The notes under the pieces are model-generated. The model saw only the letters and a program-made list of their open reading frames with translations. It did not search any database and was not told where the DNA came from. A stretch of DNA of 64,000 nucleotides from Corynebacterium durum (GTDB taxonomy: Bacteria; Actinomycetota; Actinomycetes; Mycobacteriales; Mycobacteriaceae), in assembly GCF_030408675.1 (NCBI RefSeq), contig NZ_CP047200.1, positions 124,001 through 188,000 on the forward strand. Direction: 5' to 3'. The translations under genes and the position numbers were made by a program. Positions 1,785 through 55,629 of this stretch are shown here, piece by piece. How positions within the stretch are numbered: position 1 is the first letter of the stretch; every line of letters starts with the position of its first letter.

Positions 1785-4700
1785 TTAGTCGTTGATCTTC
1801 ATGCGACCAGGGGTCCATAGTCCAGATCGGTGGATTTCCTGGTAGTCGATGATCGCCTCGGTGGGTGCGACTCCCCGGGAGTTCGTACGCAGGTGGTAGC
1901 GCTCAATGGAACCCCAGTCACGTCCCCAGTCATTCCGCAGATAGCTGGGCACCTCGATGGAGGAGTTGATTGCCTCAGCAACGCCGAGCGCGCCACCGCC
2001 GTTGTAGTCCTGCCATGGGGACAGCGTGACTTTGCCAGGGTGATCGGGCGCGATGCGGTACTCAGGGATTTCGGTGACACCAGCGTAGTGATCGAATGTG
2101 CGCTGGCAGGGGAACTGCAAAGCAACCGACCAGTCCAGTAACCCTGGGTTACTCGATCCGATGACGGTGTTCAGAGATTCCAGGGTGGGTACCCGCGGCG
2201 GGGTAAACGCCAGCCATTGCTCCGGGTTGAGGCTGGTGTCGGATGCCACGACACGCACCACGTTAGCGTTGGCCGGGATCTGGTCCATGGGAACACGCAG
2301 GTTGCGCCAGGACGGGGCGGGTCCAATGTCGAGCGGTTCGACGCTGCCAGTGTCAGTGACAGTTCCGTCGGGCTGGCGGACACCGTATTCCACGGCAAGT
2401 TCCTGTCCGTCTTGGTGCACGCCGCTAATGTCATGGTGTTCGATGCGTCCGGCAGCGGAAACCACCAACAGCGGTGCGTTCTCGTTGCGTTCAGGCAGCT
2501 GGTACCAGGCGGTGGTCACTTCGGCGGGGAACTGCGGGCCGTCTGTGTAGGAGCCCAAGACGGGGACCTTGGTGTAGTCCAAGCCGAAGGGGAGACGTGC
2601 GCGAGAGCCGTTGACACCAACGTCACCACGCACACCACCAGAGGTGCCAGTGGACTGTCCGGCGGCGTCGCCACTGGAGGTGTCATCGTCGGTGGAACCT
2701 GCGATGGATCCAGCTGCTTCCCCGCCCGAGTCAACGCCTTCAGCAGAGATGGAGGTGGGCACGTTGTTGGCATCGAAGCCGCGGTTATCTCCAATTTCTA
2801 GGGAGGATCCTAGTGGTGTTCCGTCAGCAGGGGTGAGGAAGGATTCGTTGGAGTTGGTTTCAAGCATGGCGTCATTGGCCAAGGCGCAGGTATTACCAGT
2901 CAGCGCACGCAGGTTGCCAAGCCCCACGGAATAGGCGGGGTACTGCGTGACAAAGCCTTTGGTCAGTGACAGCAGGGAGAACACCACCACAACAGCCGAA
3001 ACCACGGCAATGGGGGCGGCGGCAACACCAGCGAATTTCATTTGGTTGCGTTGACGTTTGGCGTTGAGTTGCTGCACCGTTCCTTCGGTTTCGGCGCGGG
3101 CGGTCTGGACGTCGCCAGCAAAAGACTGGATGGCGGCCGCCAGCAGCACAAGCAGTGCGATAACTAGCATTACTGTGGATGCTTCAATGTGGCGGTATTG
3201 GATGGATTTATCAAACCAGGGGATGCCAAAGCTTGAAATGTACCACCAGCCGTTGGTGCCGGACAGAGAGAAGGCCAGCACAAACAGGATCACACCGATG
3301 AAAAGCGTGCGGTTACGTGCGGACCGCATGGCCATGTGTGACACGGCCACCGCAGCGAGCGCTGCCAGCGCGGCACCGATACCCGCGTACACACCGAAGT
3401 GGTGAGTCCACTTGGTGGGGGTGAACATCATGAAGAACATGGTGCCGAAGAACACCATCATCAACCGGTTCGACGGGCCTGCGTCGGATCCCGGCACGCT
3501 GCGGTTGCGCAGCACAGAAGCCAACACCAACCCCAGGCACAGCAGCATCATCAGCACAGCAAAACGCCGGGTAAACGAGCCGTCCACCGTCTGTTGCATC
3601 AGGGTTTGGTAGCGAGCCCATTCCTGGTACCACGACAAAGCCGGTCCAATAGCGGACCGCACGCGTGTGGATTCGCGCACCGTGGCCAGCGTTTGATCAC
3701 CAAACACCGCTAACAAAATAGCCGTTCCCGATGCCAGGAATGGTGCCGTCATGGCCAGCACACCCTCAATTTTCGCGCCTCTCGACGCCTCGGGGCCAGC
3801 ATCCAGCAGCGGCAACCTGCGGTACACAATCTTGATCAAGCTAGACAATGCCGCAAGCAGCGCCGCGACAGCCATCAAACCAGTCGGGCCGGCACCCAAG
3901 GAGACTGTTGCAATGATGACGCCTACAGCAGCGGGCAGCAGTCGACGTGTCGCAATGGCGCGCTCCATGCACACCCACGTCAACAGCGCGCCCAACGCAA
4001 TCACAGGCTCCGGGCGCAGGCCATTGTTGTAGACCATCCAGAAGCCCAGGAATGAAAACGCCGCCGTCCAATGCGCCACCTTGCGCGCATTAATCTTCTC
4101 ACCCATGCGTGGCAGCACCTCACGGGAAATCACCCACCACGTCAAAATGCCAGCGACAAACTCCGGTAATCGCATCCACACAGAGGCTGTGGAGACGTGA
4201 GTTAATAAGGCCAGCAAGTCATAATATGGCGAACCAAACGGGGCTTCAGATACGCCGAACCAGCGGTAATAGTTCGCCATGTAGGTAGCGTTATCGGCAA
4301 CGCGGGCCATGGTCAGCAGGTAACCATCATCGGACGTGTTCGCACCAATGATGTACCAGTAAACCAAGACGACAATCACAATGGCGTCCAACAGTCGAGG
4401 CCGGAACCATCCATTGGGCAGCACTTTCCTGTGGCCTTGGCCATCCAGGCGATCCATTCGCTTCAACGCCCACAGTGATGCCACCAGCATGACCAGGCCA
4501 CCGTACATGCTCATGTACTTCCAGATACTGGGTGACGATGTAAACCGTGAGTTAATTTCCACCTGAACGTTGAGCCCGGCGTCGATAAGCGATGCCGTGT
4601 TGGCCGGTGTGTTGGCGAGTTCAGTGTAAATACCCGTCAACTGCGGGCGCTCGTCCCCCTTCAACTCGCCGCGATACTCCTCACCGCTGCTATCCCGTGC

Positions 4701-50669: not shown

Positions 50670-52250
50670 ATGATCCTCAGCTCTGAACACACCAACACAA
50701 CCCGCGCCAGGATGGTTGCGCTGCTGACAGTGCTGTGTGTCGTGTTGTCCATCACCGTTGGGGCTGTCGCGACCGTCACAGGAACCGCCGTCGCCCACGC
50801 ACAAACCGCCAACAACCAAGCGAGCGAGCCTCGTGCGGGCGATGCCTGGTCCACCCGAACCAACACCCGCAAGCTCGACGGCACTTACGCCACCTGGGCG
50901 GCCCGCTTCAACACCACCGCGCTCGCCGCAAACGTTCCCAACCTTGCTTTTACCGGCACCCCCACGCAGCTTAACTTTGCGGTGACCGCCGACGACGGGC
51001 AGGTACTCGTCGATGAACAGCCCTATTGGGAACTCCACCGCGTCGAGGCTGGAAAGGCCGAGGGTGCCGGGGAAGCGGACTCCGCCACTCTTCTGGCCTC
51101 CGCAGCAGTCGCAGCAGATGGCTACAGCGTCAGCTACGAATTCACCGATGCTGCCGGGACCAGCGCGAACGTTACTATCAACGGCCCCTTCGCCCCCGAC
51201 GCCACCTACGAGGTACGCTTCCACACCATCCCCATCAGCCCCGCGAAACCCTACTTCGATCGGGGTGCTGGCCTCCACGTCACCACCGCCATCGCGGGGC
51301 TTAACTCCACGGCGACAAACTACGACATCAGCGGCACCATCACCAGCGAGGAGACCACGCCAGGCTTCGGTACGTTCTCCATCACCAACCTGGTTCAAGG
51401 CGGGGCAGCCGACAAGATGCCCGCAGGCGCGCGCTTCATTATCAACGGCACCTACACCCTTCCCAACGGCACCACCACCAGCGACTACGCTGACTGGTCC
51501 GCCCCGGGGACCATCCGCGCCGACAAAACCGGCGGCGCCTTCACCATGATGGTGGGCAAAGACAACGCCGCCACGCTTGACGACGCCGCCCACCCCGGGC
51601 ACATCATCCAGTTTCCGCTGGGCACTCGCATTGACTTCAAAGAACAACAGCCCCAAGACTCGTGGGAGTACGCCTGGGCACCGCCCTTTTTCCGCATCGG
51701 AAACGACATCATTTCCGGCGTGACACTCAGTGCAGAAAAAACCCACATTGAGGTAGTGAACCAGGTGCACATGCGAAGCGACGTCACACCTGCCTGGACA
51801 TTGCTCACCGGCATTCCATTCCTCGGATCCGTCATCGCCCCGCTCGTAGCCTCAGGACTGGGGATCCTACCTACTGGATCGTCCACGCCGTCTGGGGCTG
51901 GCATGTCGGGGGCAGCGCAATCAGCAGCCCCCGACAACCCGGTCGTGCCCAGCGCGAATGGCTTCTCCGGCTCATCCCAGCCCGGCGAACTTTCCCAAGG
52001 GGATTCCGGTCACGAGCAGCCCAGCATCGCCCAGGCAGAAGTCCTCAACCGGGACGGGGGAACCGCGCGAAAGATCGCAGGCAATGCAGGCACGTCCGCC
52101 CATATGGACGTGTCTGCGGTGCGCGCCACCTCATCCTCCGCCGTGCTTGATGCGCTGCGCGTGGGCTGGGTGGTTATCGTTTTGGCACTGCTGTTGCTGG
52201 TCGTCGCCGTGGGTCTGCTGATTACCGTGGCGTACCGCAATCGCCTGTAA
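50670..52250 (+). CDS. Surface protein, paralogue of the 45.1-kb adhesin
   Basis: 526 residues. The signal peptide ends near AHAQT. An Ig-like N-terminal domain (about 50-215) is followed by a DUF5979-type domain (about 220-360: GFGTFSITNLVQG, TYTLPNGTTTSDYADW, FPLGTRIDFKEQQ). These segments align with GFGGLEVTKK, YTLPNNTTASNYPTW and FPTGTTVKLTEE of the first surface protein. A Gly/Ser/Pro-rich stalk and a C-terminal helix (VIVLALLLLVVAVGLLI) with a basic end follow. Again there is no LPXTG. It is preceded by a 215-base AT-rich upstream region. Confidence 0.75.
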   Translation: MILSSEHTNTTRARMVALLTVLCVVLSITVGAVATVTGTAVAHAQTANNQASEPRAGDAWSTRTNTRKLDGTYATWAARFNTTALAANVPNLAFTGTPTQLNFAVTADDGQVLVDEQPYWELHRVEAGKAEGAGEADSATLLASAAVAADGYSVSYEFTDAAGTSANVTINGPFAPDATYEVRFHTIPISPAKPYFDRGAGLHVTTAIAGLNSTATNYDISGTITSEETTPGFGTFSITNLVQGGAADKMPAGARFIINGTYTLPNGTTTSDYADWSAPGTIRADKTGGAFTMMVGKDNAATLDDAAHPGHIIQFPLGTRIDFKEQQPQDSWEYAWAPPFFRIGNDIISGVTLSAEKTHIEVVNQVHMRSDVTPAWTLLTGIPFLGSVIAPLVASGLGILPTGSSTPSGAGMSGAAQSAAPDNPVVPSANGFSGSSQPGELSQGDSGHEQPSIAQAEVLNRDGGTARKIAGNAGTSAHMDVSAVRATSSSAVLDALRVGWVVIVLALLLLVVAVGLLITVAYRNRL

Positions 52251-52306
52251 CCCTGTAACCAGGCGCGGGTGTCCCCGTGTCTGGCCTGGGCGGTAGGCTC
52301 TACATC

Positions 52307-54535
52307 GTGGCTCTTTATCGTAAGTATCGTCCAGCCTCTTTCGCGGAGGTGATCGGCCAGGATCATGTGACCAGGCCGTTGTCCGTCGCTCTTGATAGCG
52401 GACGTATCAATCATGCTTACTTATTTACTGGCCCGCGGGGGTGCGGTAAAACATCGTCGGCTCGTATTTTGGCGCGGTCCCTCAACTGCGTGCAAGGGCC
52501 AACGTCCACCCCCTGTGGGGTGTGTAACTCGTGTGTGTCGCTGGCACCCGGGGGGGCGGGCAACCTGGACGTGGTGGAGTTGGATGCCGCCAGCCACAAC
52601 GGCGTGGACGATATGCGTGACCTGCGCGATCGCGCCACATACGCCCCGGCGGAATCCCGCTACCGCATCTTCATTATCGACGAAGCCCACATGATCACCA
52701 CCCAGGGCTTCAACGCCCTGCTGAAGATTGTGGAGGAGCCCCCAGAGCACCTGATCTTCATTTTCGCCACCACCGAGCCAGAAAAAGTCATCGGCACAAT
52801 CCGCTCCCGCACGCACAACTACCCGTTCCGGCTGCTCGCCCCGCCGGACATGCGCATGCTGCTGGAACGCACCTGCCAGGCGGAAAGCGTGCAGGTAGAG
52901 GATTCCGTCTACCCGCTGATCATTCGCGCCGGGGGTGGATCGCCCCGTGATTCACTCTCCGTCCTGGACCAGCTGCTCGCGGGCACTGGTCCAGAGGGGT
53001 TGACGTACGATCTTGCCTCCCGGCTGTTAGGCATCACCAGTTCCACGCTTATCGACGCCGCCGTGGACGCCCTGGCCACCAGCGACAGCGCAGGTATGTT
53101 CCTCGCGGTAGATCACGCCATCGCCGCAGGTTTGGAACCCAGGCGTTTTACTGCTGACTTACTAGACCACTTCCGTGACCTCATGGTGTTGCAGGCTGTG
53201 CCCGATGCGGTGGACAACGGCCTGGTGGACGCCCCGCAAGACCGCATTGAGACGCTACAGCGGCAGGCCGCGTCCTTCCAACCAGCGGCTCTGGCTGCCA
53301 TCGCCTCCACCATCAACAGCAATGTGGACGAAATGCGCAACGCCACCGCGCCCAGGCTGCTTCTGGAAATCCTGGCGGCGAAGCTCATCATCTCTGCGTC
53401 TGGTGGGGGAGTGGTTCAGGCTGCGCCTGTTGCCTCTGCTGCGGCACCAGCGCCAACGCCGCCTGCGCCTGCGCCCGCGCCCTCGCCAAGTGGTCGGGTC
53501 TACGAGCGGAAATCCCAGCGTCTTGCACGGGAAGCAGCCGAGGCTGCAGCGCAGGCATCTGCTGCTCCAGAACCCGAACCCGAAGTGGCACAAGTCCAGG
53601 CCCCAGAACCCGAACCTGTGCCGGCTCCCGAACCCGTGGTTGAGCAACAGCCTGAGCCGGAACCCGAACCAGCACCGGAACCCCAACCCGAACCCGCGCA
53701 GCCTGCCGCGTCTATTGCCGAGCAGGTCCGTTCGCAATGGACAGCCGTGCGCACGAAGGTTGGAAGCGCGAATAAGGTTGCCGAGATTATGCTCACCGAA
53801 GCCCGGGTGCTGGGCATGCGCGACGGCACCTTAGTCATCGGGCACAACACTGGCGCCCTCGCCTCTCGACTGAACGATCCCCGCAACAACCAAGCCATCG
53901 TGGACGCGGTGAAGGATGTTGTGGGAGTTGAAGTGCCGATCACCTGTGTGATTGGGACAAACCCCAGTGAAGCCGGAATTAGCGCGGAGAACACGGGGGA
54001 GCTGACGCCAAAAAAACCGTGGACCCCACCGGTCGTTGAGAAGAGCGAGGAGAAGCCGGGAGAAGAAGAAAAACCCGCCTCGACCGGATGGGGAAAGCCC
54101 GCTGCTCTCGGTGGGTCTCAGGGTGAGACACCTCAAGCCCCGCAGCCTGCGGTAACCCCGAAAGACGTCGATACGCAGCCAAAAGAGGAACCCCGGAAGC
54201 TGAAACGCTGGGAAGAAGCGGCGGCGCGCGGGCGGGCTGCTCTGGAGGCAAACGGTGGCATGCCGGAGCCTCCACCGCCACCGCCGATGGACGAGTCAGT
54301 GCCGCTGCCGCCCGAACCCGACGATGACGTGCCGCCCCCGCCAGCAGGTGACCCCTACGGATACCCCGCAGATGAGGGTATTCCCGCACCGCCGCCCCCG
54401 CCAGCGGACACGAATGCGGAGGAAGAGGAAATGCTGCGGGAAGCTGCGCAGGAGCCGGGAAACCGCGACCGTCGAGACGCAAAAACCGTAGCCATGGACC
54501 TGCTGAGCCAAGAGCTCGGCGCCAAGCCCGTCTAA
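52307..54535 (+). CDS. dnaX: DNA polymerase III subunits gamma/tau DnaX
   Basis: Clamp-loader ATPase of the replisome, 742 residues. Walker A GPRGCGKTSS, the zinc module CVQGPTSTPCGVCNSC, Walker B FIIDEAHM, the SRC-like sensor region and domain III are all intact to about residue 370. The tail (about 390-480) is Pro/Glu/Ala-rich (PEPEPAPEPQPEP), then comes a tau-like folded segment QVRSQWTAVRTKVGSANKVAEIML and an acidic proline-rich C-terminus. The start is the GTG at 52307. An A7 slippery site at 54010-54016 may generate a shorter gamma form. Confidence 0.95.
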   Translation: MALYRKYRPASFAEVIGQDHVTRPLSVALDSGRINHAYLFTGPRGCGKTSSARILARSLNCVQGPTSTPCGVCNSCVSLAPGGAGNLDVVELDAASHNGVDDMRDLRDRATYAPAESRYRIFIIDEAHMITTQGFNALLKIVEEPPEHLIFIFATTEPEKVIGTIRSRTHNYPFRLLAPPDMRMLLERTCQAESVQVEDSVYPLIIRAGGGSPRDSLSVLDQLLAGTGPEGLTYDLASRLLGITSSTLIDAAVDALATSDSAGMFLAVDHAIAAGLEPRRFTADLLDHFRDLMVLQAVPDAVDNGLVDAPQDRIETLQRQAASFQPAALAAIASTINSNVDEMRNATAPRLLLEILAAKLIISASGGGVVQAAPVASAAAPAPTPPAPAPAPSPSGRVYERKSQRLAREAAEAAAQASAAPEPEPEVAQVQAPEPEPVPAPEPVVEQQPEPEPEPAPEPQPEPAQPAASIAEQVRSQWTAVRTKVGSANKVAEIMLTEARVLGMRDGTLVIGHNTGALASRLNDPRNNQAIVDAVKDVVGVEVPITCVIGTNPSEAGISAENTGELTPKKPWTPPVVEKSEEKPGEEEKPASTGWGKPAALGGSQGETPQAPQPAVTPKDVDTQPKEEPRKLKRWEEAAARGRAALEANGGMPEPPPPPPMDESVPLPPEPDDDVPPPPAGDPYGYPADEGIPAPPPPPADTNAEEEEMLREAAQEPGNRDRRDAKTVAMDLLSQELGAKPV
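53995..54039 (+). promoter_or_regulatory. Candidate -1 programmed frameshift site in dnaX
   Basis: The in-frame heptamer A AAA AAA lies at 54010-54016 (codons CCA AAA AAA). An SD-like GGGGGAG lies at 53995-54001, eight bases upstream. A -1 slip reads ACC GTG GAC CCC ACC GGT CGT TGA, with a stop at 54037-54039. The product would be about 577 residues. No strong downstream stem is seen; a weak CCGG/CCGG pairing is possible. Confidence 0.6.
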
Positions 54536-54600
54536 CAGCCCCACGGCGACGGCAAAAAATACTAGACTCGTACTACTACTGACAACACGAAAGGTACATA

Positions 54601-54915
54601 ATGACTGAGCCTAACGACATGGCCGCACTCATGGCGCAAGCCCAGGAGATGAAAGCCCAGCTGGACCAAGCCCAGCAAGAAATCATGGCAGCCTCCGTGG
54701 TCGGCGAAGCCGGAAATGGACTGGTCAAGGCCACCATGGGTGGCAACGGTCAAATCTCCGACCTGGTTATCGACCCCAAAGTCGTTGACCCCGAGGACGT
54801 AGATACCCTCCAAGACCTCATCCTCGGCGCACTTGCCGATGCCCACCAGAAAGTCGCCGCCCTCGCCGAAGAAAAAATCGGCCCCCTCTCCCAGGGCTTC
54901 CAAGGAATGTTCTAA
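54601..54915 (+). CDS. ybaB: YbaB/EbfC nucleoid-associated protein
   Basis: 104-residue dimeric DNA-binding protein. The N-terminal helix MAALMAQAQEMKAQLDQAQQEI, the strand VKATMGGNGQISDLVIDPKV and the C-terminal helix DLILGALADAHQKVAAL define the family. It sits between dnaX and recR as in most bacteria, with AAGG upstream of the ATG. Confidence 0.93.
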   Translation: MTEPNDMAALMAQAQEMKAQLDQAQQEIMAASVVGEAGNGLVKATMGGNGQISDLVIDPKVVDPEDVDTLQDLILGALADAHQKVAALAEEKIGPLSQGFQGMF

Positions 54916-55002
54916 ACCTTCCACCCAACGTGCGGCCAGGGCAGATGCATACTTACCTGGCCGCTTTTCCACGTCTCACACAGAAAAGGCTCGCTCACCA
55001 CA

Positions 55003-55629
55003 GTGTTTGAAGGACCACTCCAGGACCTCATCGACGAACTTTCCCGGCTACCAGGCGTAGGTCCAAAAAGCGCCCAACGGATCGCCTTCCACCTCCTCAC
55101 CGCCGAAACCACCGACATCAACAGGCTTATCGACGCCCTCGGGGCCGTGCAGCATGGCGTCACCTTCTGCCGCATCTGCAGCAACATCTCCCGCGAAGAA
55201 ATCTGCCGCTTCTGCGCCGATTCGGGGCGCGACCCTGGCATTATTTGCGTGGTTGAAGAACCCAAAGACATCCAAGTCATCGAACGCACCGGTGAATACA
55301 ACGGGCGGTATCACGTGCTCGGTGGGGCGCTCGATCCCCTGGCCAACATTGGACCCAAAGACCTGAGCATCACCGCCCTACTTCAACGTGTCGGCGGTGT
55401 TCTCGACGACGTGGAAGGTCGGGGCATTCCCGAGGTGCGCGAAGTCATCCTGGCTACCGACCCCAACACCGAAGGCGAAGCCACCGCCTCCTACTTAGCG
55501 CGCATGCTTCGCGACTTCCCCGACCTCATAGTCTCCCGCCTGGCCAGCGGCATGCCCCTCGGCGGCGACCTCGAATTCGTGGACGAACTCACCCTCTCCC
55601 GGGCGTTGAGCGGGAGGTTGAGACTATAG
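55003..55629 (+). CDS. recR: Recombination mediator RecR
   Basis: Helps RecF and RecO load RecA at gaps. At 208 residues it has the helix-hairpin-helix [17 protein letters not shown], the zinc finger [16 protein letters not shown] and the Toprim domain with [27 protein letters not shown]. The start is GTG 55003. It is the last gene of the dnaX-ybaB-recR block. Confidence 0.95.

Follow-up and report, generated by a model that had tools for sequence, protein, structure and literature searches.

The question whether a form of DnaX that is unable to bind polymerase alpha is needed has long been debated, mostly from Escherichia coli. In that species, a -1 ribosomal frameshift at codons 428–430 of dnaX, after domain III, makes the shorter product gamma; in Thermus thermophilus, RNA polymerase slips on a run of nine A, with stops in both other frames (PMC1088944; PMC5009743); in the GeneTack dnaX cluster, there are 17 genes with two open reading frames (ORFs), 12 of them with poly-A (PMC3711429); and in the laboratory, truncation of E. 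coli tau at I618 (I618X) leaves negligible alpha binding, like that of gamma (PMC11470591). One review speaks of "considerable controversy" on the need for such a form (PMC5009743), and another, from 2012, of most other bacteria keeping no dnaX frameshift signature and perhaps making no gamma (PMC3290774). Here we consider the dnaX gene of Corynebacterium durum, which lies in a 64,000-nucleotide (nt) stretch of contig NZ_CP047200.1 (positions 124,001 to 188,000; hereafter the window, to which all coordinates refer), together with its homologues across the genus. Our best reading, drawn from sequence comparison, is that corynebacterial dnaX carries a recurrent, lineage-specific -1 frameshift that would give a short tau uncoupled from alpha, gamma-like in effect, not in extent.

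The gene and the parts of its putative slip-site cassette are these:

52307..54535, + strand: dnaX (tau), 742 codons, GTG start common to relatives, above the cut-off for NCBIfam NF005844 and TIGR02397
53714..53956, + strand: tau domain V, KH-like fold, about residues 470–550
53995..54001, + strand: Shine–Dalgarno (SD)-like GGGGGAG, 8 nt 5' of the heptamer, with a predicted duplex of -10.3 kcal/mol to the 16S 3' end
54010..54016, + strand: slippery heptamer A_AAA_AAA, codons 568–570 (P-K-K), zero frame CCA AAA AAA
54016..54036, + strand: seven -1 codons, ACC GTG GAC CCC ACC GGT CGT (TVDPTGR)
54037..54039, + strand: -1 frame stop TGA
54024..54035, + strand: 5' arm of the predicted stem, 7 nt after the heptamer, from the 100-nt fold and the stem ranking
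54081..54093, + strand: 3' arm of the same stem, closing a three-way junction in the fold

The initial annotation had described an in-frame A_AAA_AAA in dnaX, an SD-like GGGGGAG eight bases upstream, a near -1 stop and a slippage product of about 577 residues, and each of these is present as described; the -1 product has exactly 577 residues and ends in KKTVDPTGR. The duplex of GGGGGAG with 16S rRNA is in the strongest 5% of gene positions (for E. coli dnaX, -7.2 kcal/mol and the strongest 13%), and the spacer to the run of seven A (A7) is CTGACGCC. Overlooked by the initial annotation was the stem downstream of the heptamer, which has 12 base pairs, one bulge and a 45-nt loop that includes the -1 stop and two small hairpins; if the search admits one bulge and loops of up to 60 nt, it ranks in the top 0.6% of gene positions, and the 100-nt fold at the site has a z-score of -2.2. 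A ribosome in the +1 frame would travel 45 codons past the heptamer before reaching a stop.

How might these elements work together? A ribosome with the AAA AAA lysine codons in its P and A sites would pause as GGGGGAG paired with 16S rRNA behind it and the stem stood in front; its tRNAs would re-pair one base back, and translation would run through the seven -1 codons to TGA, giving a 577-residue DnaX beside the 742-residue tau. Clamp-loader domains I–III and domain V would be retained in the short DnaX, and what follows them, a flexible linker and the conserved C-terminal helix, would be missing. Judging by E. coli tau, such a product would fail to bind polymerase alpha; it may enter clamp loaders that are not tied to alpha, and could load clamps apart from the polymerase. 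Judged from its letters and its setting in the genus, the segment 54010–54016 is probably a programmed -1 frameshift signal of this kind.

The larger part of the argument comes from other corynebacteria. Each of 242 genus genomes gave a protein match, some merely to a fragment or paralogue, and the final sample contained 236 dnaX loci from 235 genomes (genomes G023, G074, G091, G118, G166, G184 and G231 had no usable dnaX); 233 of these loci include domain V, the N-terminal pieces L118, L270 and L302 being without it, and for 18 of the 236 ORFs, in which no start was recognised, the whole stop-to-stop frame was used. One genome, G009, has two dnaX matches of near-equal score (C1:23815 and C1:2438206), reflecting either duplication or assembly overlap. 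Forty-five named Corynebacterium loci match dnaX loci of the sample at 100% identity across the aligned part. To locate the homologous place, we built a profile from the domain that is conserved beyond the first proline-rich stretch; the place is defined as codons -6 to +62 from the end of domain V. The 233 loci were scanned for in-phase X_XXY_YYZ heptamers (Y = A or T) that have a -1 stop nearby, with the expectation taken from 300 synonymous shuffles per gene. E. coli dnaX, put through the same scan, is scored as a match: it has a single heptamer, its -1 stop comes one codon later, and its stem begins at 5 nt (6.5th percentile, or 9th under a looser stem test described below).

With stops within two codons, there are 38 sites at the place versus 3.1 expected, and the excess is seen in one strongly supported clade (clade A, 21 versus 0.37) as well as in the other 200 loci (17 versus 2.7). 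Elsewhere in the gene the same count gives 9 versus 11.1 before the place and 4 versus 2.4 after it. Of the 52 such matches counted along the genes, 39 fall in codons -20 to +59. With stops within five codons, the place holds 52 sites versus 6.1 expected, and the region before it 12 versus 17.9; outside clade A the place has 30 versus 5.6, and single cases there may be chance. A +1-stop control outside clade A gave 5 versus 1.0, a mild excess for which we offer no explanation. A control with phase-0 stops is void by construction, no zero-frame stops being possible, and the phase argument is therefore made from heptamer counts alone: when stops are disregarded, in-phase heptamers at the place number 86 versus 28.8, and those in the other two phases 20 versus 22.4 and 12 versus 11.2. 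An excess in the single phase that allows both tRNAs to slip favours an origin in translation over one in RNA polymerase or in a DNA site.

This result bears on the suggestion, also made in the initial annotation, that the A7 causes transcriptional slippage as in Thermus. RNA polymerase would then slip on the A7 as it does on the Thermus A9, and mRNAs missing or gaining an A would give the short product. The window genome carries both tRNA-Lys(UUU) and tRNA-Lys(CUU) (among 30 of 50 tRNA matches), and Thermus too has two lysine tRNAs (PMC5009743), which speaks for such an origin. The suggestion became less likely because the A7 is short, the sites of the other 64 genomes include no homopolymer, and the heptamer excess is confined to one phase; additionally, selection against slippage is evident at nine A or T in a large fraction of genomes (PMC1088944), whereas the run in the window has seven, and the +1 stop in the window is 45 codons off, whereas Thermus has near stops in both frames (PMC5009743). 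We regard transcriptional slippage as improbable here.

Clade A bears on the main reading, programmed ribosomal frameshifting. It comprises 33 loci, a single clade with support 1.0 on a midpoint-rooted FastTree phylogeny of the N-terminal 365 residues plus domain V, a tree with low support at many deep nodes, including those near the window's species. At 21 of the 33 loci the sequence is NCG GGA AAA NCT GAR, i.e. G_GGA_AAA with a stop after one -1 codon, the -1 reading being GGG AAA AGC TGA or ATC TGA. All 21 sites use GGA and all 21 use AAA, versus 12% of Gly codons and 14% of Lys codons in the rest of the same genes; the codon that follows encodes Ala or Ser and is invariably NCT, and the residue that precedes Gly-Lys is P at 17 sites, T at two, A at one and S at one, its last base invariably G. 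Seven further clade A loci have G_GGA_AAA with stops 4–8 codons on, and five have no site with a stop within eight codons. It is very probable that the clade A sites are programmed frameshift sites. Outside the clade, C. spheniscorum (L254) has a cassette of the clade A type, and other lineages have C_CCU_UUU-GA (6 loci), G_GGU_UUU-AG (6 loci) and C_CCA_AAA with stops 2–7 codons on (18 loci).

Could the genus-wide pattern be a conserved peptide or a DNA-binding site, with no frameshifting at all? Short peptides such as PGKAE and DPKAAGF do recur at the place. The synonymous shuffles preserve the peptide, however, and predict 6.1 sites, not 52; the residue before Gly-Lys varies and its last base remains G; and four heptamer families are alike in phase and in a near -1 stop, unlike in sequence. 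We therefore consider a peptide or DNA site very improbable. Two motifs, GTDPxAAGF-S (G_GGU_UUU-AG, 6 loci) and DPK (C_CCA_AAA, 18 sites with a stop within eight codons), were considered individually as pure peptide effects, against which the shuffle excess outside clade A argues overall.

Downstream structure differs among the heptamer families. Of 30 G_GGA_AAA sites, 20 have a hairpin starting 4–7 nt downstream (4–9 nt allowed) that ranks in the top 5% of gene positions, and 23 have one in the top 10%; for random codons at the place in site-free genomes (n = 504), the corresponding figures are 4.4% and 8.1%. Their stem sequences vary (GGCTGCGG/CCGCAGCC, ACCGGCGG/CCGCCGGT, GCCGGCTCAGCTG/CGGCTGAGTCGGC, GCCCCCGCG/CGTGGGGGC and others), and since the stems are unlike in sequence, the structure appears to have been kept without the letters. 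The C_CCA_AAA sites have a hairpin in the top 5% at 5 of 18, the C_CCU_UUU sites have SD-like pairing in the strongest 5% at 5 of 6, and at the G_GGU_UUU sites neither hairpin nor SD-like pairing stands out. The last base of the heptamer is also biased: with stops within eight codons, the place has 30 GGGAAAA versus 0 GGGAAAG and 18 CCCAAAA versus 1 CCCAAAG. A second lysine tRNA has been linked to poor slippage at AAG (PMC5009743), and the preference for AAA over AAG endings is consistent with the two lysine tRNAs seen in the one genome checked.

Outside the genus, 38 genomes were searched and gave 28 loci, 27 with the domain. Of these, 25 have no heptamer with Y = A or T at codons -25 to +80. 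The other two belong to a single genus and carry G_GGA_AAA, one reaching a -1 stop after 2 codons and one after 11. The former is L363, from a different genus of the family; its G_GGA_AAA, at locus position 3425, lies at the same place after domain V and has a strong purine run, AGGAGGGGGG, upstream. L363 is the sole near-stop case among the 27 outgroup loci.

Several observations weigh against programmed frameshifting, in the window or across the genus. The A7 is present at the homologous place in only 1 of 233 loci, and in phase anywhere in the ORF in 1 of the 218 anchored ORFs scanned whole; as no other locus has it there, the window cassette is not itself conserved. Even the best-scoring full-length DnaX matches reach only 57–63% identity, and the comparison is therefore not one among close kin. 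A site with a stop within eight codons is found in 65 of 233 loci, and from the 168 without one it follows that the genus can do without it. Downstream of the window A7 there is no local hairpin with a loop of up to 25 nt; folding 40 nt gives an average result (percentile 0.48) and folding 80 nt a weak one (0.22); and the stem with the 45-nt loop was ranked only after the fold had been seen. Its -1 stop is seven codons past the heptamer versus one in E. coli, in which A_AAA_AAA is also less shift-prone than A_AAA_AAG (PMC5009743). Among the sister sites, hairpins at G_GGU_UUU and C_CCU_UUU are ordinary (0 of 12 in the top 10%), and a looser stem test (loop up to 60 nt, one bulge) gives the 30 G_GGA_AAA sites a median percentile of 0.08, with 5 of them in the top 5% (control 7 of 168), a weaker result that arises because the background gains stems too. 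Past the place there is a mild excess with stops within five codons (10 versus 4.1 expected), for which, again, we have no explanation. Finally, genomes that share ancestry do not count as independent cases; on the dnaX tree, parsimony requires 17 changes for stops within two codons (24 for stops within five).

Much of this also feeds the most serious competing explanation for the window, namely that its A7 arose by accident where a proline codon happens to precede two lysine codons, with shifting at background level and of no use in the species. Besides the solitary A7 and the 168 loci without a site, there is the rate at which such a site arises by chance: in 3.3% of 5000 synonymous-codon shuffles of the window dnaX, a shift-prone heptamer (Y = A or T) with a -1 stop within seven codons appears at the same place, and at 21% of its codon positions a -1 stop lies within the same distance. 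The A7 is rare, though not exceptional, in the 2.79-Mb genome, with 150 positions on both strands; the window has two such runs versus a mean of 5.8 in dinucleotide shuffles. An accident would, however, have to coincide with SD-like pairing in the strongest 5%, with a top-0.6% stem starting 7 nt beyond the heptamer, and with the exact place at which the genus has an excess of such sites. We think an accident unlikely, if clearly less so than slippage by RNA polymerase.

The claim that corynebacterial dnaX undergoes a programmed -1 shift thus gains support from the genus more than from the A7. When the A7 was compared across corynebacterial dnaX genes, as the initial annotation had proposed, the heptamer itself did not recur, and different heptamers were found at the place in other lineages, their -1 stops following at once or soon after. 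On balance we lean, by a modest degree, towards a broader view: that corynebacteria have repeatedly evolved dnaX -1 frameshifting past domain V, with at least four heptamers; that the resulting short tau loads clamps without holding alpha; that the event and the place are selected as the signal turns over; and that the window A7 is one case, with a three-way-junction stem like that of IS911.

What would be lost from the protein? Two elements of the tail are predicted to be absent from the short form:

54299..54319, + strand: VPLPPEP motif, from an alignment (A1) of 36 tau C-halves
54467..54532, + strand: C-terminal motif DRRDAKTVAMDLLSQELGAKPV, predicted helix at residues 725–737

The alignment consists of 35 of the 42 complete named ORFs plus the window. 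In it, prolines P202, P204 and P207 (A1 numbering) of VPLPPEP are identical in 36 of 36 corynebacterial tau C-halves, and P205 and E206 are kept in at least 90%. The motif sits within an otherwise variable DnaX linker and looks like a docking motif. C-terminal endings resembling that of the window's tau were seen in 27 outgroup loci. At the other end of the protein, the start peptide VALYRKYRP is the same as in named relatives, which share GTG 52307; the first start codon of the frame is an alternative GTG at 52277. Within the coding sequence of the ATPase domain there is a run of seven G at 52550–52556. Downstream of dnaX (region 54601–55629) are ORFs 54601–54915 and 55003–55629, which we take to be YbaB/EbfC-like and RecR-like, respectively.

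In the literature searched, from which subscription papers were mostly out of reach, we found no report of dnaX frameshifting in corynebacteria. If our reading is correct, frameshifting would truncate DnaX in a second lineage, independently of the first and at a different point. Only the tail would be lost, which corresponds in position to the alpha-binding end of E. coli tau; this would suggest that the selected loss is that of alpha binding, not of domains IV–V as a whole. Additionally, the turnover of heptamers among sister species would offer a natural series on how frameshift signals arise.

Among the closest known systems is the E. coli cassette (RF00382). Like it, the window has an in-phase A_AAA_AAR heptamer, a nearby -1 stop and a shorter predicted DnaX; a stem downstream is predicted here too, though with a 45-nt loop, and the SD-like run is 8 nt upstream of the heptamer (10 nt in E. 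coli). Like it, many G_GGA_AAA sites stop after one -1 codon and have GC-rich hairpins 4–7 nt on (5 nt in E. coli). Four loci (L068, L272, L305 and L400) read GGGAAAA GCTGA ACCGGC..., a sequence whose stop, spacer and start of the stem are close to those of the E. coli AAAAAAG AGTGA ACCGGC..., the likeness apparently being convergent. Unlike in E. coli, the sister heptamers differ from one another, and the immediate stop, present in 21 of 33 clade A loci, is absent in the window. No RF00382 match was found in window positions 52000–55600 or in eight corynebacterial loci including the window's own (L001) at an E-value cut-off of 0.01, versus E 3.1e-20 for the E. coli control. The cut also falls elsewhere, at codons 568–570 after domain V; because the site follows domain V and not domain III, only the linker and the C-terminal motif would be lost, and the product would not be a gamma of the E. 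coli type. Thus, of the E. coli-like, gamma-making layout proposed in the initial annotation, the heptamer and the SD-like run stand, and the extent of the product does not.

The remaining systems resemble the window in part. Thermus thermophilus dnaX likewise has an A run late in the gene and a truncated product; its run is an A9, versus the A7 of the window, and the corynebacterial sister sites are not homopolymers. The two-ORF dnaX genes of Chlorobium and others also have a frame transition within dnaX, and there the zero frame stops early and the shift makes the longer tau, whereas tau of the window is the zero-frame product. E. coli tau I618X resembles the predicted short form, with the domain V core kept and the last 25 residues gone. 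That truncation is, however, an engineered stop that its authors tried without success to place in the chromosome (PMC11470591), whereas the natural corynebacterial case would make both forms.
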